Source: a virus. From it: a stretch of DNA of 27,687 bases. Shown piece after piece: positions 1,503 to 27,687 of this stretch. Every line of letters starts with the position of its first letter. Position 1 is the first letter of the stretch. Both the position numbers and the translations under genes were made by a program. The notes beneath the pieces were generated by a model. It was not told the origin of the DNA and made no database searches. It was given only the letters and a program-made list of their open reading frames with translations. The stretch spans positions 1 to 27,687 of IMG/VR virus record IMGVR_UViG_3300044997_000467; one strand, written 5' to 3'.

Positions 1503-3076
1503 TAGCCAAGCGCCCCGATCGCGTCTTCGCTGGGATCCATGCCGCCGACGTCTTCGGGCGAGCCTTCGAGCGCGGCCGCAATTCGGCGAATTTCCGCCGC
1601 GACGTCATCGGGCACGCGCTCGGCCAGATCGTCCAGCGCCAGCGCCGCGGCTTCGACGGCTGGCGACTGCGCGCCGGCTTCGCGCTGCACGCGCGCCAAT
1701 TCGGCCAGCGCATCGCCGCGCGACATTCCGGGATTACGCAACATCATCACGTCCGAGGGTGAAAGAAGCCCATTCTTTAGCGCCCATTCTTGATCCTCGC
1801 GATCGGCGCGTTCTTCCTCCGGACCCTTGCCAATTTCATGGTAGACGATTCCGATTCCGGCCGGATCAATGTTGGCCAAATAGCACGCGTGCCGAATCGT
1901 GAGAAGATCGGCCTTCCGACACAATGGGCCGCGGCGGCGTTGTTCGAGCCGCTTCGTTTCGTTGGTTAGGTGAATCGCGGCGCCCGACATTGGATTAGCG
2001 CCGGCGCGTACGGCGTCCGTTGGGGTGATCCCCATATCGGCGGCAAGCTGGGCCGAATACGCTTGCGCGTAAGACTGCAACGCCGGCAATGTCTGAACCT
2101 CGCCGATTTCAGAAACCGAAGGCTGAACCCCGCTTTCTAACGGCGAATGATAGACAAGATCGCCCGGCTCGGCGTCAAGGGTGAGCGTCGAGATTCCATC
2201 ATCCGTTCCGCGCACCGTCGAGGATAGCGGCCGCGCGTTGAAAATTAGCGCGACCTTGCCGGTAGCGTTCAACGCGGCGCGGTTGCAAGCGCTGTAAAGC
2301 ATCATTGCTTGCAGCGTACCGCGCGCGACGGATCGGCCGCGTTGCCAGTTCCAAAGATCGCCGACGTCCCACGATCGATGAATAGCCCAGGGCAAGAACG
2401 GGCGCCCGGCCGTATCGCGCCAAGGGTACGCGTCGCCGCTCAGCGAATCGACGCCGATCGCGCGATAGGTGATATCCTGGCCGATTCCGCCGCCGCGCTC
2501 GGCCGCAAAAACGCCCCACGACGGCGCCGACGGATCCGACACGTCCCAAACGTCCCAAGCGTAAACGGCCGAGCCCTCAAAGCGCCGAACGCGCAGCCGA
2601 CGCATTACGATCGGCTCGGTTGGATCGTCGGCGGCGTGCGAAGCCCAGAGCCTATGAGCCGGCACGACGTGAAATTTTACGGCGCCCGAAAGCGCGTCCG
2701 GCTCGCAATAGACAGCGCAAGATCCGCAAGCATAAGTCAGGTATTCGCCGTGTTGAAGCCGCGGCCACAAATCTTCGGTAAGCTCGGCGGCTTCGTGCGC
2801 CGACGGGCCGATCAACGTCGGCGCTCGGCCGTAATGTCCAGGCGTCGAAACGGCGTGCCCGATCGCCGCAAGCGCGTTCCTCGCCGTATCGGGCGGCCCC
2901 CAGCGCCTTAGCCGATCGTCGCTAACGTATTGCCGGAAATAGTCTTCCGACGCGGAATCGACGTCTTCCATTGCGATTTGATAGCGCGTTTCCTGCACGC
3001 GTACGCGCTCGCGTTCCCATTCCGGAAAATATTCGATCGCTGGGGGAAGCATCCCGCCTGAGCTATTGTCGATCAT
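1502..3076 (-). CDS. Portal protein
   Basis: A 524-residue protein beginning MIDNSSGGMLPP. It lies directly after the large terminase, before the scaffold and capsid genes, and has normal portal length. The middle is rich in aromatic and beta segments. A helical segment with LAADMGITPTDAV and NPMSGAAIHLTNE (roughly residues 380-420) resembles the long stem helix of portal proteins. The C-terminal tail is acidic and helical. The portal forms the dodecameric ring through which terminase packages DNA and to which the tail attaches. The start at 3076 is preferred over an upstream in-frame start at 3232: it has a five-G ribosome-binding site (3082-3086) and an ATGA overlap with the terminase stop. 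Confidence 0.85.
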   Translation of the reverse strand: MIDNSSGGMLPPAIEYFPEWERERVRVQETRYQIAMEDVDSASEDYFRQYVSDDRLRRWGPPDTARNALAAIGHAVSTPGHYGRAPTLIGPSAHEAAELTEDLWPRLQHGEYLTYACGSCAVYCEPDALSGAVKFHVVPAHRLWASHAADDPTEPIVMRRLRVRRFEGSAVYAWDVWDVSDPSAPSWGVFAAERGGGIGQDITYRAIGVDSLSGDAYPWRDTAGRPFLPWAIHRSWDVGDLWNWQRGRSVARGTLQAMMLYSACNRAALNATGKVALIFNARPLSSTVRGTDDGISTLTLDAEPGDLVYHSPLESGVQPSVSEIGEVQTLPALQSYAQAYSAQLAADMGITPTDAVRAGANPMSGAAIHLTNETKRLEQRRRGPLCRKADLLTIRHACYLANIDPAGIGIVYHEIGKGPEEERADREDQEWALKNGLLSPSDVMMLRNPGMSRGDALAELARVQREAGAQSPAVEAAALALDDLAERVPDDVAAEIRRIAAALEGSPEDVGGMDPSEDAIGALG

Positions 3077-4512
3077 TTGCGCCCCCTTCCGCCGTAGCTT
3101 GCCCGAATACTTAGATCGATGCGTCGCCGTGTTCCGCGTTCGATCGCGTAACGCGCGGCGTCTAGCACGTCTTTGTGGATGTCGCGCGAATCGCCGCGGA
3201 ACGCTTGGATCGCCTTGATCAGCGACGCGCATCGAGGATGGATCATAGCGCGACCGTTGGCAAATGCAGCGTTTATCAAGCCTAGACCATAGTGCACCGA
3301 TCCCGATCCCTTCGTTGGCGTCGCGATCAATTTAGCCGCCGGCGATCCCGACGTTATCCCGCTCTGATACCATAGCTGCGCGCGCAATAGCGCATTCGAT
3401 TTCGATTTCAATTGTCGGCCGTCGCCGGTATCGCGATCGCCGACCCATTGATCGACGCTGCTGTATTCGCAGCCGACGCCGCGCAGCATTTCGAGAATCT
3501 TAGCGGCGTCTTGATCCGGGCTGGAAACCTCGGCGCCGCCAGCTTCGGCAACGAACCAATACCGCGGCGCGTCAGTATCACCGTCGGCGACGGCCACCAA
3601 AACGGCCCATTGCTTGCCGATTACAAGCCCGTGATCGATCCCTACAATTAGTTCGGCGTTGCTCGGCACGTCGCGCCAAGAAAACGGCTTCGTTGCGGAG
3701 TCGCTGAACCCCGTAAGCCAGCGATCGGCGATCACGGGTTCCCAGGCGGCGTGTACGCGCATCGGAACCTCGATCGCCGGCCATGCCTTGATCGCTTCGT
3801 CGATCCTTTCTTGCGAAAGGAACGGCCGCGCGTAGCCCTCCGGCCATGCGTTATTGGGCGTCATTGCGGCGTGATGCTCGGCGAACACGCCGGCGTCGAT
3901 CAATTCGCGCGCCCAGCCTTGATCCGGCATGGAAAGCGTCGGCGTAAAGCTCAACGTGAACGTTCCGCCGTGCCGCAATAGTCGCGGCTGCAATTCGCCA
4001 TAGGTTCGCGCCGGCATTGGTTCGTCGCAATATACGTGATGAACGGTAGCGCCGGCCAGCGTCTTAGGATCCTGGCGATAGGTTCGAAGCGAAATAACCG
4101 AGCCGGCGCCCGGGCCGGAAACAAACCGGATCGCTGGAATCTTCCCGCCGCGGATACCTTCGCCGGGAACGAAGTAAATTCGCGGATCGATCTCGTCTTT
4201 CGGAATGACTTCCCATAGCTTCGACAGAATCGCGCCAGGCGCGGCCATTTGTTCCAGCGATTCCGAAAGCAGGATCACGTTTATCGGCCCGGTAAACCGA
4301 CGCGGACGAAATGGATTTGTACCGCGGATTTCGTGTACCAAATCGGCAACCAAGACGGTTGTCTTTCCGATTTGGTTAGCGGCTCGAACGATCCTATTGA
4401 TCGACGCGTCGGCCAAGAAAGCGCGTTGCCATGCCGACCAGGCGGCGAACCTGAGCGGATCGCGCGTCGCCAATTCGGCTGCGGCGCGGAAAGCCTGAAC
4501 GGCCAGCGTCAA
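3073..4512 (-). CDS. terL: Terminase large subunit
   Basis: A 479-residue packaging motor with both expected domains. The ATPase half has a variant Walker A (AANQIGKT, residues 44-51), Walker B with catalytic acid (VYCDEP, 160-165) and the coupling motif SFTPT (188-192). The nuclease half has an RNase H-like set of acids: GIDHG (Asp293), SVDQWVGDRD (Asp354 and nearby acids) and HKDVLDAARYA (Asp448, Asp451). It cuts concatemeric DNA and drives it through the portal using ATP. Translation starts at TTG 4512, in a TTGA overlap with the small terminase stop. It ends in an ATGA overlap with the portal gene, so all three packaging genes are coupled. Confidence 0.95.
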   Translation of the reverse strand: MTLAVQAFRAAAELATRDPLRFAAWSAWQRAFLADASINRIVRAANQIGKTTVLVADLVHEIRGTNPFRPRRFTGPINVILLSESLEQMAAPGAILSKLWEVIPKDEIDPRIYFVPGEGIRGGKIPAIRFVSGPGAGSVISLRTYRQDPKTLAGATVHHVYCDEPMPARTYGELQPRLLRHGGTFTLSFTPTLSMPDQGWARELIDAGVFAEHHAAMTPNNAWPEGYARPFLSQERIDEAIKAWPAIEVPMRVHAAWEPVIADRWLTGFSDSATKPFSWRDVPSNAELIVGIDHGLVIGKQWAVLVAVADGDTDAPRYWFVAEAGGAEVSSPDQDAAKILEMLRGVGCEYSSVDQWVGDRDTGDGRQLKSKSNALLRAQLWYQSGITSGSPAAKLIATPTKGSGSVHYGLGLINAAFANGRAMIHPRCASLIKAIQAFRGDSRDIHKDVLDAARYAIERGTRRRIDLSIRASYGGRGRK

Positions 4513-5015
4513 GCGACGATCCCGCGGCGTCGGAATACGTCGGCGATTTCGCGGGCGAACGAAGGCGGCACGCTTTCGGCAGCGCCGAGTAGGGCGATCC
4601 TAACCTCGTCCGGCGACAAGCCGCGCGCGTCGCGCTCGCGTTCGAGCGCTGAACGCAATTCCCGGAAGATTTGATCCTGCGTCTCAACCAGCCGCACGCG
4701 TGCGGCGTCGCTGCTCATTTCCGGGATCATCGTTTGCGTTTGATACCAGCGCCATATCCAGAATTCAGCCTCCGAAGCCGTCGCCGGGTTGAACGTCGGA
4801 ACCGGATCGGGATCGGCCGCGGCAACGACGCGCGGCAACGCGACGATCTGAGCGCCGCGCCGCTGAGCGTGCCACCAACGTCGTAGGGTGTCGCGGCTGA
4901 TTCCCGTTTCGCGTTCAGCGGCATGCCAGTTCGGATCGCCGCTTTCCGTCGTGATCGAAGCCGCTAGCAATTCGAGCGCCGCGGCGCGCTCGGCGGCCGG
5001 GTAGCTATGGCGCAT
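4509..5015 (-). CDS. terS: Terminase small subunit
   Basis: A 168-residue protein located just upstream of the large terminase. An N-terminal helix-turn-helix is visible (NWHAAERETGISRDTLRRWW, about residues 30-49), followed by a Pro-rich hinge, a central Trp-rich helix (EFWIWRWYQTQT) and a long charged helical region suited to oligomerisation. Small terminases form rings that recognise the packaging site and feed DNA to the large subunit. The ATG at 5015 is chosen because a five-G ribosome-binding site (5020-5024) precedes it. An in-frame open extension up to 5120 lacks any such site and its composition differs. The identification rests on order and the DNA-binding motif. Confidence 0.85.
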   Translation of the reverse strand: MRHSYPAAERAAALELLAASITTESGDPNWHAAERETGISRDTLRRWWHAQRRGAQIVALPRVVAAADPDPVPTFNPATASEAEFWIWRWYQTQTMIPEMSSDAARVRLVETQDQIFRELRSALERERDARGLSPDEVRIALLGAAESVPPSFAREIADVFRRRGIVA

Positions 5016-5150
5016 GGCTCCCCCTAGGTGCCTTGTAGGGTAGGAATATCGGCCCGGAGCGCGCGCGCAACGGGAGACGAAAAAACTCCGGGTCGTAAAT
5101 CGAATCGGATGCACGGGCAAACCTGCCCTTTAAGCCGCGCGCGCCGGCCG
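5016..5150 (-). other. Intergenic segment between RuvC-like gene and small terminase
   Basis: The 135 bases hold two inverted repeats and no convincing gene. Just after the RuvC stop there is a 5-bp stem (GGGCA 5115-5119, TGCCC 5124-5128, 4-base loop) without a T-tract. Further on, CCCGGAG (5053-5059) and CTCCGGG (5086-5092) form a 7-bp stem with a 26-base loop that includes an A-run. Being next to small terminase, this is a reasonable place for a packaging (cos or pac) site, but that is inference only. Confidence 0.35.
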
Positions 5151-5708
5151 TCAGGGCGCCGCCCAGGCTAGCCAAGCCGCAATCCCGGCCGCTTCCGCGG
5201 CGTGTTCACTCCAATCGGCCGCCGCGGCTAGCGTCCAAGCGCGCCGAGCGAGCGAATACCCGGCAGGCGCGCCTAGGTGCGGCCGGCCGTGCAGGTGATC
5301 GAGCGCAACGCGCTTCGCGCGTGCCGAATCGAGCCGCACGGGCCGCCCGAAGTAAACAGCGCGCCAGGTATCCGGCCGCGGCCGTGCCACCGGCACGCCG
5401 TGCGATTCGACCAGCCCGACAGCAACGCCGGCCGACGTCGCAAGCGCCAGCGGCGCCGGCTTTCCGGCATACCGCCCGACGGCCTCAACGGCGCAAGCCC
5501 TGGCCGTGCCGAGCGGCACGCAAGCAGTCAGCGTCGCGCCGAGCGTCAGCGCTTCGCCGCTTCGAGCCGCTGCGTTAAGCTCAGCGAGCCTCCAGCGATA
5601 GCCGCGACGGCCGCGACGATAGTCGGCAAGCCAAAGTAGATCGCCGTCTTCGCCGAGCAACGCAACGCCGCCGGCCGTTCCGCCGGGATCGATGCCCAAA
5701 TAAGCCAA
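5151..5708 (-). CDS. RuvC-like Holliday junction resolvase
   Basis: A 185-residue protein with the RNase H-fold RuvC signature. LGIDPGG at residues 4-10 gives catalytic Asp7, the second acid is Glu75 in CAVEAVGRY, and the C-terminal SEHAAEAAGIAAW (167-179) occupies the place of the last catalytic acids of RuvC, with Glu172 and possibly His169. Such phage enzymes cleave branched DNA so that concatemers can be packaged. Placement as first gene of the late block, directly before the terminases, fits that role. The start is TTG at 5708, preceded by six G (5712-5717) at short spacing, the same arrangement as the TTG gene at 12747. Specific branch preference cannot be read from sequence. Confidence 0.8.
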   Translation of the reverse strand: MAYLGIDPGGTAGGVALLGEDGDLLWLADYRRGRRGYRWRLAELNAAARSGEALTLGATLTACVPLGTARACAVEAVGRYAGKPAPLALATSAGVAVGLVESHGVPVARPRPDTWRAVYFGRPVRLDSARAKRVALDHLHGRPHLGAPAGYSLARRAWTLAAAADWSEHAAEAAGIAAWLAWAAP

Positions 5709-5766
5709 GATCCCCCCGTGTCCCTTGGCCGCATATGCGCGCCACCACCGGCAAGCAACCGAAGAA

Positions 5767-5780
5767 CATACCGCGGTATG
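5767..5780. repeat. 14-base perfect palindrome CATACCGCGGTATG
   Basis: The two 7-base arms meet without a spacer and each contains the GCGGTAT iteron (one per strand). A zero-spacer palindrome of this kind is suited to binding a dimeric DNA-binding protein. It lies about 60 bases upstream of the RuvC-like start on the coding strand, a position where binding would affect late transcription or replication initiation. Confidence 0.7.
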
Positions 5781-5870
5781 AACAACACCCCAAAAACGAT
5801 CGCGGTATACGAAAAGGCGCGGCTAATCGACCATTACCAGATATACCATCATTACCGGAATCAACATTAG

Positions 5871-5901
5871 ACTATAAGGGAAGAAAAAAAAAACCCGGCA
5901 A
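5871..5901 (-). promoter_or_regulatory. Candidate late promoter (weak)
   Basis: On the minus strand a -10-like TATAGT lies at 5876-5871 (five of six to consensus) with TTGCCG at 5901-5896 as a possible -35. The spacer is 19 bases and consists largely of a T10 tract, which is longer than ideal. It would drive the RuvC-terminase-head operon. AT-rich DNA produces such matches by chance, so this is only a candidate. Confidence 0.25.
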
Positions 5902-6000
5902 ATCGCCCGCCGCAGCCCGAAAACGACGTTCCGCCCGTTTATCGACGCCCTTTTTTTCTTTTTTTCTAGGTTCACAAAAATTTGTTTTGCGAAAAGTTAA

Positions 6001-6015
6001 GCGGTATAGCGGTAT
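6001..6015. repeat. Tandem GCGGTAT iteron pair
   Basis: GCGGTAT occurs at 6001-6007 and again at 6009-6015, an 8-base period. Two further direct copies lie at 5773 and 5802 in the same intergenic region. The same heptamer appears only sporadically elsewhere (for example near 20130). Confidence 0.6.
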
Positions 6016-6021
6016 GGAAGC

Positions 6022-6062
6022 AAAAAGCCGCGACCGTCCAGCGTTTTAGACGATCGCGGCTT
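6022..6062 (-). terminator. Rho-independent terminator after the VirE-family gene
   Basis: Read on the minus strand, AAGCCGCGA (6062-6054) pairs with TCGCGGCTT (6033-6025) as a 9-bp GC-rich stem. It is extended by a 4-bp inner stem (6049-6052 with 6035-6038) after one mismatch, with a 10-base loop, and the descending arm runs into a T5 tract (6026-6022). It begins about 20 bases after the VirE-family stop and closes the minus-strand replication operon. No T-tract exists on the other side, so it acts in one direction. Confidence 0.85.
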
Positions 6063-6082
6063 GTGGTAGCTACCAGGTAGTA

Positions 6083-7585
6083 TCAAGGTACGTCGCAAAA
6101 CCAGCGCGGCGATCGATCCTGCGAGCCGTAAGCAGGGCGGCGCGAAATCCAGCCCAAACCGCGCATGATCGCGTTAACGCGCCGAACGTAGCCCGTTGAG
6201 GCTTGCGCCCGCGGCAGCCCGCAAGCCGATTCGAGGATTTGCGCCGTTGTCGGCGCTTCCGCGTGCCCGTCCGGCCGATCAAGCCAAATCCTAATATGGT
6301 CCGCCCAAGGATCGATCGGGCGCCAGCGCTCAGCGTCGGCCGCCTGCAATTCGGCGACGTCGGCGGAAACGTGCCAGCGCTCGCCCGCCCGAAACCGCGC
6401 CAAGGCCTCCGCCCAAATTTGCGGCGCGTCGCGCTCCAAGCGGTCGACGTCGATCGGTTGACCGCCGACGGCAACGCGAACGGGCAAAAATCGCCGATCG
6501 CCGGTTGCGTCTAGCAACACCTCGTCGACGTTGGTTGTGCCGACAAATACGCATGTTCGCGGTTGGTTTACCTCGAACCGAGCGTAGGCCGGACGATACC
6601 GATCGCGCTGGGAAGTAATGAACGCCTTGATCAACGCAGCGTCGCGCCTATTGTTCCATTTATCAAATTCGGCAAGCTCGAACACGTTTACGCCGCGCAA
6701 CGCCGCGAAGCCGTCGCGGGAACCGGGATCAAATTCGGAATCTGAGTAAAACGCCGGCCCAGCTAGGGCGCGCATCGCGCTTGACTTCCGCACGCCTTGC
6801 GCGCCCACAAGTATAACGACGTTATCGGCCTTACAGCCAGGATCGAAAGCGCGCGCAATCGCCGATAGACACAAGATCCGGCCGGCCGCCTGAGTGAGCG
6901 CGTTATCATCGGCGCCCAAATACGACGGAAACAAAGCGTTTACGCGCGGGATCCCGTCCCATTTGCACGCCGAGCGCGCATCCTGTAGCATATTGATCGG
7001 GTTTCGCGCAGCGACGGCGGCGACCGCCCGGGCGACGGTATCGATCGAGAATTCGACGCCGAAGCCCTCGTCTAGTCCGATCTGTATTTCGGTTAGCTCG
7101 GTATCGCTGAGCGGCTTTTCGTCCCAGAGCGAAACGCCGCGGAATTCGTCGAATCGAGCGCGGCCCGACCATTCTTCGGCATTTTCAAGGATCAGCACGG
7201 CCGATCGCGCCGTCTTCGAGCCGTCAAGCTTCAACCGCCAGGCGTCGATCCTATCCTCGCCGCCGCCGCCAGGAACAACGCGAAGCCCGGCGCCGGCAAC
7301 CTTCGCCGCTCGGCGCAATTCGGCCCGCAAGTCGCGCGCGCGCGCTTCCCATCCTCGCCCGGCGACAAGCCCCAGGCGGGCGATCACGGGTTCAGCCGCG
7401 GCCGCCGAAGCGCAAAGCGCCGGCAAGATCGACGGCCAAACCTCGGCGCGCAAGTCGCGCCAAAACGTCGCGCGTTGATCGTCGTCTTCCGCGAAATCGA
7501 TCAAGTCGATCGCGCCCGATAGGCGCGAAATTGCTTCGGCGGACGGATCAAGGTAAGATCCTTCCGCGGCTTTGCTACCCTGCAT
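6083..7585 (-). CDS. VirE-family P-loop ATPase (primase-helicase-like replication protein)
   Basis: A 500-residue protein. The C-terminal 300 residues match the virulence-associated E family: CKWDGIPRV (207-215), Walker A GAQGVRKSS (261-269), Walker B-like VFELAEFD (301-308), the IKAFITSQRDRYRPAY block (319-334), sensor VGTTN (348-352) and GDRRFLPV (362-369) with a candidate arginine finger. The first 190 residues are Ala-rich and lack an obvious primase motif. In phages such proteins act as replicative helicases or initiators. Here it is the last gene of the replication operon and adjoins the candidate origin. The ATG at 7585 has a five-G ribosome-binding site (7594-7598) that directly abuts a hairpin (7600-7628). 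Confidence 0.85.
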   Translation of the reverse strand: MQGSKAAEGSYLDPSAEAISRLSGAIDLIDFAEDDDQRATFWRDLRAEVWPSILPALCASAAAAEPVIARLGLVAGRGWEARARDLRAELRRAAKVAGAGLRVVPGGGGEDRIDAWRLKLDGSKTARSAVLILENAEEWSGRARFDEFRGVSLWDEKPLSDTELTEIQIGLDEGFGVEFSIDTVARAVAAVAARNPINMLQDARSACKWDGIPRVNALFPSYLGADDNALTQAAGRILCLSAIARAFDPGCKADNVVILVGAQGVRKSSAMRALAGPAFYSDSEFDPGSRDGFAALRGVNVFELAEFDKWNNRRDAALIKAFITSQRDRYRPAYARFEVNQPRTCVFVGTTNVDEVLLDATGDRRFLPVRVAVGGQPIDVDRLERDAPQIWAEALARFRAGERWHVSADVAELQAADAERWRPIDPWADHIRIWLDRPDGHAEAPTTAQILESACGLPRAQASTGYVRRVNAIMRGLGWISRRPAYGSQDRSPRWFCDVP

Positions 7586-7631: not shown

Positions 7632-9104
7632 TTATTGCGATAGAAGCCTAATGTTTGCCGCGCTCAGCGACGGCGCCGGGCCGCGATCGCCCCAGCGCCA
7701 AGCGCGCCCCCAGTCTTGCGGGCTTGGGCGCGCCGGTATGCTCGCAGTAACGGCCGCGGATACGGCCGCCAACACGGCGATTAGGTCGGCGGCCGCGCCG
7801 CGCGGTAACAAATCGGGCGCCTTCGCCAGTTCCCTAGCCGCCTTTCGGGCCGTTTCGGGCAGTCTGGAAATCGGGCCGCGCGACGTTTCGCCGAGCCGCG
7901 CAAGCCGGGCGCGCTGCGCCGACGTCGCCGGCAATTGCCGATCCGCGCCGACGTAGCGAACGGGCCGGACGTCCAGCCCGATCGCCAGCGCGGCGGCGAC
8001 AAGCTCGGCCGCCCATTCATCCGCCGCTTGCGCGGCTACCGCTAGCGCTTCCAGCCGCAATAGCGCGGCCGCTTCCGGCCCGGCCGTCTTGGCGGCTTCC
8101 TCGGCGGCTTCGGCTTCGAGCGCGCCCAGGGCTTCCGGCGTCGCGAAAGCGTGCAGCGGCGCCAAGCCGAGCGGATCGAACACGATCGCCGACGCCTTGC
8201 CGCACGCCGTCCGCAGCACGCGGCCGACTTCCTGCACAAGCCCTAGCGGTGACCTCGAACGGCGCAACGCCGCCCAACGGAGCCAGGGCAGGTCGACGCC
8301 TTCAGTAAGCAATTGGACGTGTACGATCGCTCGAATTTCGCCCAGCCGCGCACGTTCGAGCGCCGCGGCAACGTCGGCGCGCGGCATCGAGCCGGAAACC
8401 GCTTCGGCCGGCCAGCCGCGGGCGCTTAGGTACGCGGCGTAATCGAGCGCGTCGGCGATCGTTTCGGCCGATACGATCCCGGCGCCTTCGGGCCGCTCGG
8501 CATCGAGCATTGCGACGATCGCCGAGTCTACGCCAACTTCGTCGCCGCGCCAAGGCACGACGCGCGCCGGAACGATCACGCCGTCGCCGAGCGCGTCAGG
8601 CAAGCCATAGCGATACAGAAGCGGCGAATCCCAGCCGTCGATCGGTGCGCCCGTCCGCCAAGGCGTCGCCGTAAAGCCGAGCCGAGCGCCAGGCGCCAAG
8701 GCTTCGGCCGCCGCCGCAACGAACGGGCCGGATAGCCCGCGATGCACCTCGTCGGCGATCCAAAGCGCCGGCGCCGATCGGCCGGATTCGCGACGCTCGG
8801 CGACGTAGCGCGGAAACGACGGAACGCAAACGATCGTGCAGCGCCGGCCGATTTGGTGCCGCCGGCCGTAGAATTCGCCGACGTCGGCGCCGGAATCGGC
8901 CAACGTCGCGGACAATTGCGATACCAGCGCTTCGGTTGGGCAGGTGATCACGACCTCGCCGCGCGTTTGCCGCACGATTTCGGCGATTAGGCGCGACTTA
9001 CCGGCGCCCGTGCAAGCTTGGATTACGCGCCGATCGCCCGCCTGGCGCTGCACGACTTCCAGCGCCAGCGGTAGCGCTTCGGCTTGCCACCGCCGCAAAC
9101 TCAA
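7632..9104 (-). CDS. Superfamily 2 DEAD/DEAH-type DNA helicase
   Basis: A 490-residue protein with an ordered SF2 motif set. These are a Q-like LRRWQAEAL (3-11), Walker A ACTGAGKS (30-37), motif Ia TCPTEAL, Walker B IADEVHR (DEVH at 118-121), motif III FTATPWR (144-150), motif V-like LLTEGVDLPW and motif VI QEVGRVLR. The core resembles RecQ/UvsW/RAD3-like or type III restriction-type helicases (ResIII family). The last 150 residues are an Ala-rich extension of unknown role. It presumably unwinds or remodels branched DNA during replication and recombination. The start is TTG at 9104, overlapping the SSB stop (TTGA), so it is coupled to SSB. Which polarity or substrate it uses cannot be told. 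Confidence 0.9.
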   Translation of the reverse strand: MSLRRWQAEALPLALEVVQRQAGDRRVIQACTGAGKSRLIAEIVRQTRGEVVITCPTEALVSQLSATLADSGADVGEFYGRRHQIGRRCTIVCVPSFPRYVAERRESGRSAPALWIADEVHRGLSGPFVAAAAEALAPGARLGFTATPWRTGAPIDGWDSPLLYRYGLPDALGDGVIVPARVVPWRGDEVGVDSAIVAMLDAERPEGAGIVSAETIADALDYAAYLSARGWPAEAVSGSMPRADVAAALERARLGEIRAIVHVQLLTEGVDLPWLRWAALRRSRSPLGLVQEVGRVLRTACGKASAIVFDPLGLAPLHAFATPEALGALEAEAAEEAAKTAGPEAAALLRLEALAVAAQAADEWAAELVAAALAIGLDVRPVRYVGADRQLPATSAQRARLARLGETSRGPISRLPETARKAARELAKAPDLLPRGAAADLIAVLAAVSAAVTASIPARPSPQDWGRAWRWGDRGPAPSLSAANIRLLSQ

Positions 9105-9487
9105 AACGGAATCCCCGAGCCGTCATCGTAAGCGGCAGCGGCCGGCGCGGAATCGCTCGAATCGCTAGATTCGGGCGCCCTTCCGACGAAACGCACGCTA
9201 TCGCAAGCCATTTCGATCTTGGCGCCGCGCGTTCCGTCGCGCTTGTCAAATTCGACCAATTCGATTCGGCCGTCACAAATAACCGTGCGCCCCTTGTCTC
9301 CAAACCGTTCGAGCGCCTGAACAGTCTTGCCGAATGCGGCGCAGTCAAACCACGTCGTTGTGTCCACCCAGGCGCCGTCGATCTTCTTTCGGCCCGAAAC
9401 CGCAACCGAAAACCGAGCAACCGTTCCGGCCGCGTTTACTTGCGGTTTGCGGCCCATATTTCCACAAATAACGGTCTTGCTAAACAT
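9101..9487 (-). CDS. ssb: Single-stranded DNA-binding protein
   Basis: A 128-residue SSB with an N-terminal OB-fold (residues about 1-105). The N-terminus MFSKTVICGNMGRKP, the AVSGRKKIDG loop and TTWFDCAAFGK are family hallmarks. A short Ser/Ala-rich linker leads to the acidic tip DDGSGIPF, the classic C-terminal peptide by which SSB recruits partner enzymes. It binds ssDNA at the fork and probably recruits the adjacent helicase and the RecT-like annealing protein. Its ATG at 9487 overlaps the primase-like gene stop by 8 bases and has a five-G ribosome-binding site (9492-9496) inside that gene. Confidence 0.95.
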   Translation of the reverse strand: MFSKTVICGNMGRKPQVNAAGTVARFSVAVSGRKKIDGAWVDTTTWFDCAAFGKTVQALERFGDKGRTVICDGRIELVEFDKRDGTRGAKIEMACDSVRFVGRAPESSDSSDSAPAAAAYDDGSGIPF

Positions 9488-10034
9488 CGTTCCCCCTCGT
9501 TTCACGGTTTGCAAACGCCGCGATTTCGTCGGCGACCAGCTGCAGCGCGGCGATATTTCCAGAGCGCACCCAATGCAACGCCGACGGGAAAAAATCGATC
9601 GCGTCGTTGGGATCCAGCCCGCACGCCGCCGCGGCACGCTGCGCGCACGTCCAGGCTGCGCGGGCTTCCGCGCCGCGCCTTGCTTCGCGATCCGATTTGC
9701 TCAGCCGCCGAGCCGCCGGCCGCGCCGAAACGCCGACGGGCAAGCCGGCCCACAAATGCCGCGCCGCGCCTTCGAGCCGCCGCCAATCCGCCGAACCAAG
9801 CGGCCGGCGGCGGCCGATCACAACGAAAGAAAGCAAATTTAGGGACGATCCGCCCGCCTGGCACGCGTAGCACGTCCAAACCGGCCCGCTTGTCCGAACC
9901 GAGCCGAACCGGCCCAACCGATTGTCTGCGCGGCTCGGCGTATGTCCGCAAGCCGGGCACGTCGCCAGACCGATCCGCCCGGCCAAATCGACAACGTCGC
10001 GGCGTGCGACTTCGTCGGCCCAAGCTGCGCCCAT
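9480..10034 (-). CDS. Zinc-ribbon primase-like protein (CHC2-type zinc finger, no TOPRIM)
   Basis: A 184-residue protein. The N-terminus resembles the DnaG-type zinc domain: VARRDVVDLAGRIGL, then CPAC (Cys26, Cys29) and CYAC (Cys55, Cys58), then GGSSLNLLSFV. These residues would bind zinc and recognise the primer start site. No TOPRIM catalytic domain follows; the remaining 110 residues are helical and Arg/Ala-rich. It may therefore be a separate zinc subunit working with the VirE-family protein. It is the first gene of the minus-strand replication operon. Its leader, GGGGGAACAA before ATG, is identical to that of the divergent RecT-like gene. A non-primase zinc-binding regulator is possible. 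Confidence 0.7.
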   Translation of the reverse strand: MGAAWADEVARRDVVDLAGRIGLATCPACGHTPSRADNRLGRFGSVRTSGPVWTCYACQAGGSSLNLLSFVVIGRRRPLGSADWRRLEGAARHLWAGLPVGVSARPAARRLSKSDREARRGAEARAAWTCAQRAAAACGLDPNDAIDFFPSALHWVRSGNIAALQLVADEIAAFANRETRGNDV

Positions 10035-12554: not shown

Positions 12555-12766
12555 TCAACGCAAAGCCCGGCGGGCGGTGTCCGCATTGCGGCGCTAGGCT
12601 TTCGCTACGCGGCGCAATTCCGCCAAGCGGCCCGGCGATCGTTGAATGCGAGCGCTGGCCGTTTCTGCCGCTGCCAGATTTGATCCAAAAGCCGGAAGGC
12701 TATCCGGTGCATGCTTTTTACTGGTTTTTCGACGAAGGGGGGGATCTTGGATCTGCTGGAAATTAG
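12551..12766 (+). CDS. Small protein with a CPHC zinc-knuckle (71 aa)
   Basis: A 71-residue protein starting at GTG 12551 in a GTGA overlap with the preceding stop. RCPHCGARLSLR near the N-terminus is half of a zinc ribbon; a lone further cysteine occurs in VECERW, so a full four-ligand site is not evident. The C-terminal part is aromatic and hydrophobic (AFYWFFDEG). The last codons overlap the next gene by 20 bases in another frame and include that gene's G7 ribosome-binding site. No family is recognised. Confidence 0.6.
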   Translation: MINAKPGGRCPHCGARLSLRGAIPPSGPAIVECERWPFLPLPDLIQKPEGYPVHAFYWFFDEGGDLGSAGN

Positions 12767-13190
12767 ACATCTGGCCGTTTCCGAGCTTAGGCGCGTTGCC
12801 GAATTTGGCGACGGCTATACGGCGCATGATTTGGCGGAAATCATCGATCGGCCGGCCGCCGGCGTTTATGCGACGCTTGCGGGGCTTGTCCGCTCCGGGC
12901 TTGTGCGGCTCGGCGCGGACGGCGTCTATTCGGCCGCCGTCGCCAAGGTGAAGCGGCCGGAAGCGCTCAGCGTAAAGCCTGAGCTTGCCGATTTTACCAC
13001 CGTCGCGCCGACGCTACCGAGCGGGCCGACGCGCTCGGTTTGCTCGATTTCGCCGGACGTGCGAGCCGCGCTAACCGCGATCGGCAAAGCCGAAGCCAGC
13101 GCCGCGCGCGCCGCTGAGCTTTCCGCCGCCTGGACGCTGCACGTTCAAGGCTTGCGCGCCTACCTTGCTGCAATTGGGGGGAATCCATGA
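12747..13190 (+). CDS. Winged-helix DNA-binding protein (147 aa)
   Basis: A 147-residue protein starting at TTG 12747, directly after G7 (12737-12743) and ATC, the same GGGGGATCTTG arrangement as the RuvC-like gene. Residues about 14-60 read as a winged helix: SELRRVAEFGDGYTAHDLAEI, with RPAAGVYATLAGLVRSGLV as recognition helix and wing, then GADGVYSAAV. A Pro/Thr/Ser linker (about 65-95) leads to an Ala-rich C-terminal helix. It is probably a transcriptional regulator of this cluster. Its stop overlaps the next ATG (ATGA). The target is unknown. Confidence 0.65.
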   Translation: MDLLEIRHLAVSELRRVAEFGDGYTAHDLAEIIDRPAAGVYATLAGLVRSGLVRLGADGVYSAAVAKVKRPEALSVKPELADFTTVAPTLPSGPTRSVCSISPDVRAALTAIGKAEASAARAAELSAAWTLHVQGLRAYLAAIGGNP

Positions 13191-13564: not shown

Positions 13565-13833
13565 TCCCGGCCATTCAGCTTCCAGCCGACGCGCTGCACG
13601 AAATCGAGATCCATAGCGCGCGCGCCGTCGCCGTCGGAACGCCAGGGATCGCCGTCGTTGTGCGCGATCTGGCCTATACGGGCCGAATTCTTTACGCTCA
13701 GCTTGAAGCGGCGTTAGCCGCCGTCGCCGAAGCGCCGCGCGGCAATTGCGGCCGCGCTTTCGTCGATCCCGATCACGTCTTGCGCGTAGCCCTAGCCGCC
13801 CGTAGCGAGGTGCAGCCGTGCGCCGATACTTGA
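13561..13833 (+). CDS. Small hypothetical protein (90 aa)
   Basis: A 90-residue protein starting at GTG 13561 in a GTGA overlap. The N-terminal half has beta-strand character (AVAVGTPGIAVVVRDLAYTG) followed by an Ala-rich helix (LEAALAAVAEAP). A C-terminal HVLRVALAARSEV stretch is helical. No motif or family is recognised. The frame is supported by the chain of overlapping starts and stops on both sides: it overlaps the next gene by 16 bases. Confidence 0.55.
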   Translation: MIPAIQLPADALHEIEIHSARAVAVGTPGIAVVVRDLAYTGRILYAQLEAALAAVAEAPRGNCGRAFVDPDHVLRVALAARSEVQPCADT

Positions 13834-14267
13834 TCGCGGAAGACGGAATCACCATTCTTCGGGTCGCCGAGCCGGGCGAATCGGCCTCAGGCCGTCGCGT
13901 GATTCGATCCGCTCGGCCGCTTCGGACGGGCGCCCGGCTTTGCCGCGTGCCGGCCGGCGCCGTCGATCGCGGCGATCTTTCCGCTTCGCCCGATTTGCTA
14001 GCCGCGCTCATCGACGCCGCGGGCGGGCTGAGCCTTCGCGCTTGGCTCGCCGACGCGCTTGCTGCGGGCGACGTCGATCGCTTCGCGCGACAAGCCGCCG
14101 CGCGCGGATCGTCGGAATCGGCGGGCGCTCGGCGAACCGCCGTAACGATCGCGCTAACCGCGGAGCGATTCGCTCAATTCCAAGCCGCCCGCTTGGCGCA
14201 CGGCGTACCGGTTGCGGCAATGGTTCGCGAAGCTGTTAGATCCGCGCTATGGCCGAACATTGCCTAA
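13818..14267 (+). CDS. Ribbon-helix-helix-type protein (149 aa)
   Basis: A 149-residue protein starting at GTG 13818. The N-terminal 95 residues are Arg/Ala-rich without a recognised domain. Residues about 107-145 fit a ribbon-helix-helix (Arc/CopG-like) module: a short strand RRTAVTIALT, helix AERFAQFQAARLAHG and helix PVAAMVREAVRSAL. Such modules dimerise and bind operators in the major groove, so autoregulation of this cluster is likely. No toxin gene is adjacent, which argues against a classical toxin-antitoxin pair. It overlaps the following HNH gene by 19 bases. Confidence 0.6.
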   Translation: MRRYLIAEDGITILRVAEPGESASGRRVIRSARPLRTGARLCRVPAGAVDRGDLSASPDLLAALIDAAGGLSLRAWLADALAAGDVDRFARQAAARGSSESAGARRTAVTIALTAERFAQFQAARLAHGVPVAAMVREAVRSALWPNIA

Positions 14268-14665
14268 ATTGCGCCGAGCCGGCGACGGTACGGCACCATG
14301 TCATCCCGCGCAGTCGCGGCGGCCGCGGAACCGTGCCGCTCTGCTCAGTTTGTCACGCGTTGGCGCATCGATCGAGCCTTAGCGACCTGCGCGCCGATTC
14401 CCATCGTGAGACAACCGCTAGCGGCAAGCATGGCGGCGGCTTGCCGCCATACGGATACGCCGTCGTTTCAGGCCGGCTCGTCGCGGACGCGTCCGAGCAA
14501 GCCGCCGTAAATGCGATCCTTGGCTTGCGTCTAGACGGCAAGTCATATGCCGAAATCGCCGCGGCCCTAACCGAGCGAAAATTAAAGCCGCGCGGCTCAG
14601 CCTGGAACGTATCGGCGATCCGGAAGATCGTTATTCGCTATTTCGGCCCGACAGCTTCCGAATAG
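14249..14665 (+). CDS. HNH endonuclease-like domain fused to a serine-recombinase DNA-binding fragment
   Basis: A 138-residue protein with two recognisable parts. Residues 5-41 are an HNH zinc-finger nuclease-like unit: CLNC (Cys5, Cys8), HHVIPRSRGG (His16, His17) and LCSVCHALAH (Cys32, Cys35, His36, His40). Residues about 63-130 match the entry of the recombinase domain of large serine recombinases: GGLPPYGYAVV, LVADASEQAAV, GKSYAEIAAALTERKL and WNVSAIRKIVIR. The resolvase catalytic domain is absent. The recombinase piece would supply DNA binding and the HNH part cleavage. It is the last gene of the plus block and runs 35 bases into the 3' end of the opposing holin gene. A homing-type endonuclease is the main alternative reading. 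Confidence 0.7.
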   Translation: MAEHCLNCAEPATVRHHVIPRSRGGRGTVPLCSVCHALAHRSSLSDLRADSHRETTASGKHGGGLPPYGYAVVSGRLVADASEQAAVNAILGLRLDGKSYAEIAAALTERKLKPRGSAWNVSAIRKIVIRYFGPTASE

Positions 14666-26888: not shown

Positions 26889-27687
26889 TCAGGTAGCGTT
26901 AGAACGGATCAAGAATTGCGGGAACAGATCCGCGCTCAGCTTGCCGACGCCAACGAAGGCGTTTGCGTCGATCCGCTTGGTGGCGGACTGACCATCCGTC
27001 TTGCGGGTAACCACGATCCCCCATTCGGGAACGAAGACGGGCGCGGAATCCGAAAGATCGCCCATTTGCGCCGTGGAACCGACAGCGTAAGCGAGCGCGC
27101 CAGGGCTGTAAGCGAAGCCGTAGTAATCGCCGCCCGAAAGCGCGACGTCGGCCGAGCCGTAAACGTCGATCCCCAGGAAGGTGAACCGGAAACCGGCTTC
27201 CGCCTGCATACGCTGGTACAACTCGAAAGATTCCGGGTATTGAAGCGCGGTTTCCGAGCGAATCGAATTACGCAAATGCGTAATCTGCTCAGGGTGAAGG
27301 ATCGAAACGGCGCGACCATCGAACCCGGCCGAAGCCTCAAAATCCCCGCGCAGCGCGATCCAGTCGTTGACGTCCAACGTAGCGGCGGGATCGGCCGAAT
27401 TCGTCGCAAACGTCGCGCCCGTCGTGCAAACGAGCGAACGAAGCGTAGCAAGATACGAATCGACGAAAGTAGCGGCGATATCGTCGATCTTCAACAGCGC
27501 GTCGTCTTGGATCGCGTGTTGGAACGATTCGCTAAACGCCAAGCCGTGCCGGCCGATCGTGATATCGTCGGTTCCGACGGTGAGCGGCGAAGCGGCGATC
27601 GCCTCAGTCTCAGAGCCGAGCGAAGCCATAGCCTTCGACCAGCCCAGACCGGTAACCCGACGCGTGCGGACGGTATCCGAGCCGGAA
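26889..27687 (-). CDS. Major capsid protein, C-terminal part (gene continues at the window start)
   Basis: This is the 3' part of the 317-residue capsid gene whose first 112 codons lie at 336-1. Bases 27507-27687 repeat the left end, so the frame is open at the right edge. The C-terminal half is beta-rich (FRFTFLGIDVYGSADVAL, PVFVPEWGIVVTRKTDGQ) with a helical spine-like stretch (HPEQITHLRNSIRS), consistent with an HK97-type capsid subunit but without a decisive motif. The gene ends with a double stop, TGATAG, just before the 240-residue gene. Confidence 0.8.
   Translation of the reverse strand, partial: SGSDTVRTRRVTGLGWSKAMASLGSETEAIAASPLTVGTDDITIGRHGLAFSESFQHAIQDDALLKIDDIAATFVDSYLATLRSLVCTTGATFATNSADPAATLDVNDWIALRGDFEASAGFDGRAVSILHPEQITHLRNSIRSETALQYPESFELYQRMQAEAGFRFTFLGIDVYGSADVALSGGDYYGFAYSPGALAYAVGSTAQMGDLSDSAPVFVPEWGIVVTRKTDGQSATKRIDANAFVGVGKLSADLFPQFLIRSNAT
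27507..27687. repeat. Right copy of 181-base terminal direct repeat
   Basis: This stretch equals bases 1-181 except for T at 27634 (C at 128). It shows that the contig overlaps itself and that the genome can be drawn as a circle of about 27,506 bases. The substitution changes capsid codon 70 from Arg to Lys. Confidence 0.95.

Follow-up and report, generated by a model that had tools for sequence, protein, structure and literature searches.

A mirrored iteron array directly downstream of vapE as the probable replication origin of a complete 27.5-kb phage genome

The intergenic region between the vapE gene and a RuvC-like gene of the phage studied here (5709..6082, a few bases of the repeats reaching into the vapE 3' end) is very probably its replication origin, of the type described for SaPI and PICI elements, and would be bound by the phage's own VapE helicase. 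The proposal comes from comparison of sequences and from analogy with studied homologues, and it is carried by the arrangement of the repeats and by their position, both of which match those found at other vapE loci. The window, that is, the whole stretch of 27,687 nucleotides analysed (IMG/VR record IMGVR_UViG_3300044997_000467), has ends that overlap by 181 bp (1-181 and 27507-27687) with one mismatch, and it therefore represents the whole genome of a phage, about 27.5 kb long (about 27,506 bp) and either circular or circularly permuted.

Read leftward, the gene order is SSB, helicase, VapE, terminator, repeat region, RuvC-like protein, terminase small-subunit candidate and terminase large subunit, followed by a portal candidate and, across the window end, by the tail genes as far as the endolysin; the repeat region thus separates the replication genes from the late ones. 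The replication block, encoded on the minus strand, comprises the single-strand DNA-binding protein (9101..9637, PF00436, 1.7e-14, the true start being probably within the frame), a helicase of the superfamily-2 type (7632..9104, phrog_16 and ResIII) and the VapE-family helicase of 500 aa (6083..7585, PF05272, E 6e-66). The vapE transcript is predicted to end at an intrinsic terminator with a 16-pair stem (6025..6062, minus strand), which confirms the placement given by the sequence-only reading, between the terminator of the replication block (6062-6025) and the first late gene and beside the VapE ATPase (6083-7585). The first gene on the side away from vapE codes for a RuvC-like Holliday junction resolvase (5151..5708, minus strand), and it is followed by the terminase small-subunit candidate (4509-5120) and the terminase large subunit (3073-4512); phrog matches (phrog_1770, 4.6e-7; phrog_2, 8.6e-10) are the basis of the RuvC-like and terminase assignments. 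The genome carries virion genes, among them those for the terminase, the portal candidate and the tail, and in this it is unlike a phage-inducible chromosomal island, a satellite that lacks them. Elsewhere in the window, 14249-14665 on the plus strand codes for a small protein that joins an HNH-like N-terminus to the 'Recombinase' domain (PF07508) of large serine recombinases, and the catalytic resolvase domain is absent from it.

The GCGGTAT iteron is present on the plus strand at 5773-5779, 5802-5808, 6001-6007 and 6009-6015 and on the minus strand at 5768-5774. These four direct and one inverted copies, together with the two CATTACC copies (5832-5838 and 5850-5856), the palindrome, the A10 and T7 tracts and the segment with 42 A/T in 60 bases, had all been listed before and are all in place. 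Two elements had been overlooked, a 9-bp tandem triplet on the minus strand and a second palindrome. From left to right the array consists of an outer inverted pair of half-sites that forms the perfect palindrome CATACCGCGGTATG (5767..5780, one of the 9 perfect 14-bp palindromes of the genome), a single iteron GCGGTAT (5802..5808, plus strand), the inner tandem triplet CCGGTAATG-ATGGTATAT-CTGGTAATG with an exact 9-bp step (5832..5858, minus strand, GGTA at 5835, 5844 and 5853), to which both CATTACC copies belong, the A/T-rich core, an inner tandem pair GCGGTATA GCGGTATG with an 8-bp period, mirrored relative to the triplet (6001..6016, plus strand), and further outer half-sites (6064..6090) made of the palindrome TGGTAGCTACCA at 6064-6075 and of GGTA at 6076 and 6087, the last of these falling inside the vapE 3' end. 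There are thus two iteron sets, the triplet with the single site and a palindrome on one side and the tandem pair with a palindrome on the other. The iterons are degenerate, more so than in other vapE arrays, with only four bases common to all copies, and a GGTA half-site describes the repeat unit better than GCGGTAT does. In the 322 bp from 5769 to 6090 there are 12 GGTA/TACC half-sites where 1.6 are expected (135 genome-wide), and the array lies directly 3' of vapE, with the gene end at 6083 and half-sites from 6090 to 5769. The half-site and its layout were recognised partly after viewing relatives, and a layout scan of the window with 5-mers gave no 5-mer that passes.

The number of GCGGTAT copies in the window is 10 against 4.65 expected, a number that 4 of 100 shuffles reach, and no 7-mer is clustered more densely anywhere in the genome, with an equal cluster appearing in 5-9% of Markov genomes. 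The count against shuffled sequence that had been suggested for this 7-mer gives by itself only moderate evidence against chance. For GGTA, the strength of the cluster was matched by none of 150 Markov genomes of order 1 and by one of 150 at each of orders 2 and 3, and the 12 copies compare with 2.6 in local shuffles, none of 3000 reaching 12, with the caveat that in 7% of the shuffles of this A/T-rich region one 4-mer or another, if the choice is left free, also occurs 12 times. The cluster combined with the mirrored tandem layout was found in 0/100 and 0/100 Markov genomes (0/200), and pairs on the same strand at 8-11 bp are commoner than under random placing (P 0.0009). Clustering by chance in a spacer rich in A/T, which would agree with the borderline 7-mer enrichment and with the 7% of shuffles just mentioned, is very unlikely in view of the local GGTA excess and the mirrored layout, and also of the position of the array, which is the one predicted from other vapE loci.

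The core between the inner tandems (5859..6000) is the proposed melting region and consists of A10 with an A/T-rich stretch, a GC-rich middle, and T7CT7 with a second A/T-rich stretch. Its A+T content is 59% in 5861-6000 compared with 37% genome-wide, and the best 40 bp, at 5951, reach 78%; A10 lies at 5884-5893 and T7 is found twice, at 5951-5957 and 5959-5965. No 60-mers in the genome are richer in A/T than two that lie in or adjoin the core (42/60 at 5834 and 43/60 at 5951). The inverted repeat formed by A10 and T7CT7 was rejected as a feature, being a by-product of the homopolymers. A DnaA/iteron origin of the plasmid type was also discarded, since no TTWTNCACA box occurs within one mismatch in 5709-6082. 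The GC skew, which had been suggested as a check for an origin, gave nothing at 5.9 kb, and its sole inflection, at about 10.08 kb after detrending, coincides with the switch of coding strand.

The core also contains a terminator-like hairpin with 6 pairs, including two G-U pairs, and a T10 run after it (5884..5912, minus strand). Such sites number 2 against 2.2 expected by chance, and the fold is no better than that of shuffles. This hairpin points in the direction of late transcription and precedes the late genes, and it may be an attenuator, an anti-termination site or a product of chance. In the leader as a whole the predicted RNA structure was likewise no better than in shuffles, and no Rfam families were found.

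Because a terminator is predicted between vapE and the RuvC-terminase genes, the promoter of these genes is probably located in 5709-6020, and a late promoter within the repeat region is likely on these geometric grounds, with the terminator upstream and the late genes downstream. The region might then be a late-gene control region only, its GGTA sites being operators of a phage regulator that switches on the RuvC-terminase operon, such as a candidate ribbon-helix-helix protein (13818-14267) or a candidate winged-helix protein (12711-13190). Tandem and palindromic sites do fit cooperative regulators, and small DNA-binding candidates are present in the genome, though below curated cut-offs. We nevertheless regard this explanation as unlikely: the search of the repeat region for a sigma-70 promoter by consensus found none, the half-site cluster is unique in the genome, with none seen at 10.05-10.15 kb, where the other main promoter region lies, and such arrays track vapE elsewhere, including on small plasmids without late genes. 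Of the two functions put forward by the sequence-only reading, an origin or a late switch, the origin is thus supported by the layout, the position and the kinship of VapE, and the late switch, for which no consensus promoter was found, may also act here.

A refinement that overlaps with the origin reading is that the same site combines a VapE origin with the late promoter, one protein-DNA complex coupling replication to late transcription. The geometry of the terminator points to a promoter in the region, and Pseudomonas phage vB_Pae_U5 (L030) has a corresponding gap between its replication and terminase genes, in which its close relative LPPA36 (L029) carries an array. As no promoter was identified and the coupling is pure inference, we consider this combination possible but rather doubtful.

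The nearest solved relative of the VapE protein is PriRep1 with double-stranded DNA (PDB 7PDS), both by profile (1.6e-95) and by fold (9.9e-25 over about 445 columns); the molecule is named 'Similar to D. nodosus vapE' in that entry, and we take it to be the Rep protein of SaPI1. The structural model has a mean pLDDT of 81, and in residues from about 426 to 500 a winged-helix-like order of helices and strands is predicted with a pLDDT of about 68-87 per block. We propose from these similarities that VapE is both the initiator and a self-loading helicase. Its C-terminal winged-helix domain would bind the GGTA-type iterons, and one VapE ring would be seeded at each of the mirrored inner tandem groups, about 150 bp apart, while the palindromic pairs outside them would contribute additional VapE sites. 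The A/T-rich core would then melt and the two helicases depart in opposite directions, while the SSB of the phage, whose gene lies upstream in this block, would coat the single strands. It is from homologues that we infer VapE binding, ring assembly, melting and origin firing in this phage.

To compare the region with other vapE loci, an alignment of distant VapE proteins was used to collect 80 viral and 80 prokaryotic loci, and 79 non-redundant loci were scanned for iterons by a procedure blind to position, with a score threshold of 15 chosen by eye. Strong iteron clusters were found 0-1 kb 3' of vapE in 26/79 loci and in 0/449 of the upstream kilobase bins, and in a few loci further downstream; many have mirrored 9-bp tandems on either side of a core of about 105 bp, and a layout-based scan with other settings gave the same position. 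The strict layout of mirrored 8-10-bp tandems of 5-mers was present in the 0-1 kb bin of 21/79 loci, compared with 1/449 upstream, with core gaps of 72-163 bp (median 109), a range that includes the 150-159 bp of the window. The 19 arrays that were read have mirrored inner tandems at steps of 8-10 bp, most commonly 9, around a core of mostly 66-110 bp, many of them have outer inverted pairs, and 14 of 15 cores have more A+T than their own locus. In more than half of the vapE loci no array was detected 0-1 kb downstream, and among these are L032 and L034, the best-scoring vapE relatives, which have a similar set of SSB and helicase. These data indicate that a mirrored iteron origin layout is common in vapE phages and plasmids, as judged from the sequences.

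Arrays directly 3' of vapE were found in Paenibacillus phage Bob and on the plasmids pGO128 (Gluconobacter oxydans, 4.3 kb) and NZ_OX291476.1 (Serratia, 12.9 kb), and Pseudomonas phage LPPA36 and Marinobacter phage PS3 also carry an array 3' of the gene. Across the 26 arrays, the similarity of the VapE C-terminus tracks that of the iterons (permutation P 0.001, and 0.007 after correction for the helicase core), which is weak evidence that the two vary together, since relatedness is only partly removed. The array of pGO128 (L194, NC_003374.1) is made of AGCACT repeats at 2680-2950, and no other obvious replication gene is annotated on this plasmid, which would be a natural minimal replicon for VapE as a plasmid initiator. 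One group of vapE loci (L040, L042, L045, L048, L050, L052 and L054) shows an array of GTTGGGA/GGTTGG repeats in both orientations 2-5 kb 3' of vapE and not immediately behind the gene. In L036, CTACGGC occurs 22 times in 290 bp (65-353), an apparent tandem repeat at the far end of the locus, away from vapE.

No close relative of the window phage was found in the collections searched: the segment 3000-9000 has no nucleotide relatives among phages, and protein scans of viral contigs with VapE, the RuvC-like protein and TerL singly gave none or one distant locus. The exact 14-bp palindrome had 26 matches in viral contigs, which were attributed to chance, since a match to a window protein was present only in L011 and was an isolated one (endolysin). 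Relatives of the virion exist in L198/G002 and L199/G003, which share terminase (42-44% identity), portal and tail genes and have no VapE match, and replication modules therefore appear to have been swapped between phages of one virion lineage. A further contig, IMGVR_UViG_3300037963_003942 (G001), is related mainly by its tail genes and also has no VapE match.

The comparison with G002 bears on whether the repeats are a packaging site (pac or cosB-like) for the small terminase subunit. The cosB site of phage lambda combines repeated sites with bent A/T tracts, and the region studied here has repeats and A/T tracts as well and is separated by about 600 bp from the terminase genes, on their upstream side. 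The whole 26.9-kb contig of G002, the only relative scanned in full and possibly incomplete, has a terminase with 43% identity, is syntenic with the window in its terminase, portal and tail genes, and has neither a VapE match nor a comparable repeat cluster, and unrelated vapE plasmids carry the array. The array therefore appears to go with VapE and not with the terminase, and a packaging site is extremely improbable.

If the pattern is general, a mirrored iteron origin would be standard for a large share of VapE elements, among them tailed phages, prophages, small plasmids and satellites, with an iteron that changes together with the C-terminal winged helix of VapE, and the window would be a divergent phage case in which the site may also drive late transcription; we hold the chances of this generalisation to be about even. 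A 2018 paper stated that the mirrored iteron origin of PICIs is shared by 'no other known bacterial replicon' (PMC6092414), and the view of this origin as exclusive to PICIs would then be overturned. We found no paper reporting such origins as common in vapE phages or plasmids, in a search that covered a minority of the subscription journals. Hundreds of records of phages and plasmids contain VapE ('virulence-associated protein E'), and for most of these no replication origin is given. The rule of seeking mirrored 9-bp tandem iterons with an A/T-rich core directly 3' of vapE would give candidate origins for many of them. Such a rule would tie the replication of phages, plasmids and satellites to one family of self-loading helicases and opens the question of how the VapE C-terminal domain and the iteron change together. 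It is this wider pattern that raises the weight of the finding.

Among known systems, the primase-helicase alpha of the phage satellite P4 recognises its own iteron origin (ori and crr), and we liken it to VapE by description only, as it belongs to another protein family. P4 alpha and its ori are also named in PMC6092414. The helicase Cch2 of SCCmec binds direct repeats 3' of its own gene and is similar in having a C-terminal domain that binds double-stranded DNA and repeats in the 3' intergenic region (PMC7581432), but it belongs to the D5/Primase_Cterm branch, has only three iterons (AAGTG) and is not from a phage. In LPPA36, PS3, Bob, pGO128 and NZ_OX291476.1, as in the window, the array lies directly or within 0.5 kb 3' of vapE and the inner tandems are mostly mirrored with a period of 8-10 bp, whereas the iterons there exceed those of the window in length and in conservation (CTGTCCC, GGGGTGA, CTGCAAC, AGCACT and CCACCCG). 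The sequence-only reading knew of no described equivalent, and in this it was mistaken, since the SaPI/PICI origins are one: the C-terminal domain of the SaPI Rep protein recognises an iteron origin directly downstream of the rep gene (PMC7581432), and these origins share with the window a VapE-family helicase, an array that follows the gene of the initiator helicase immediately on its 3' side, and short iterons grouped in two sets, one on each side of an A/T-rich core. The window differs from them in being not a satellite but an entire phage genome that supplies terminase, portal and tail genes itself, in its degenerate GGTA half-site and palindromic outer pairs, and in a core that has a GC-rich middle and, at 150 bp, is longer than in most of the arrays compared. 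The feature is real, and it is most likely an ordinary representative of an already described class of origins, found in an unusual setting.
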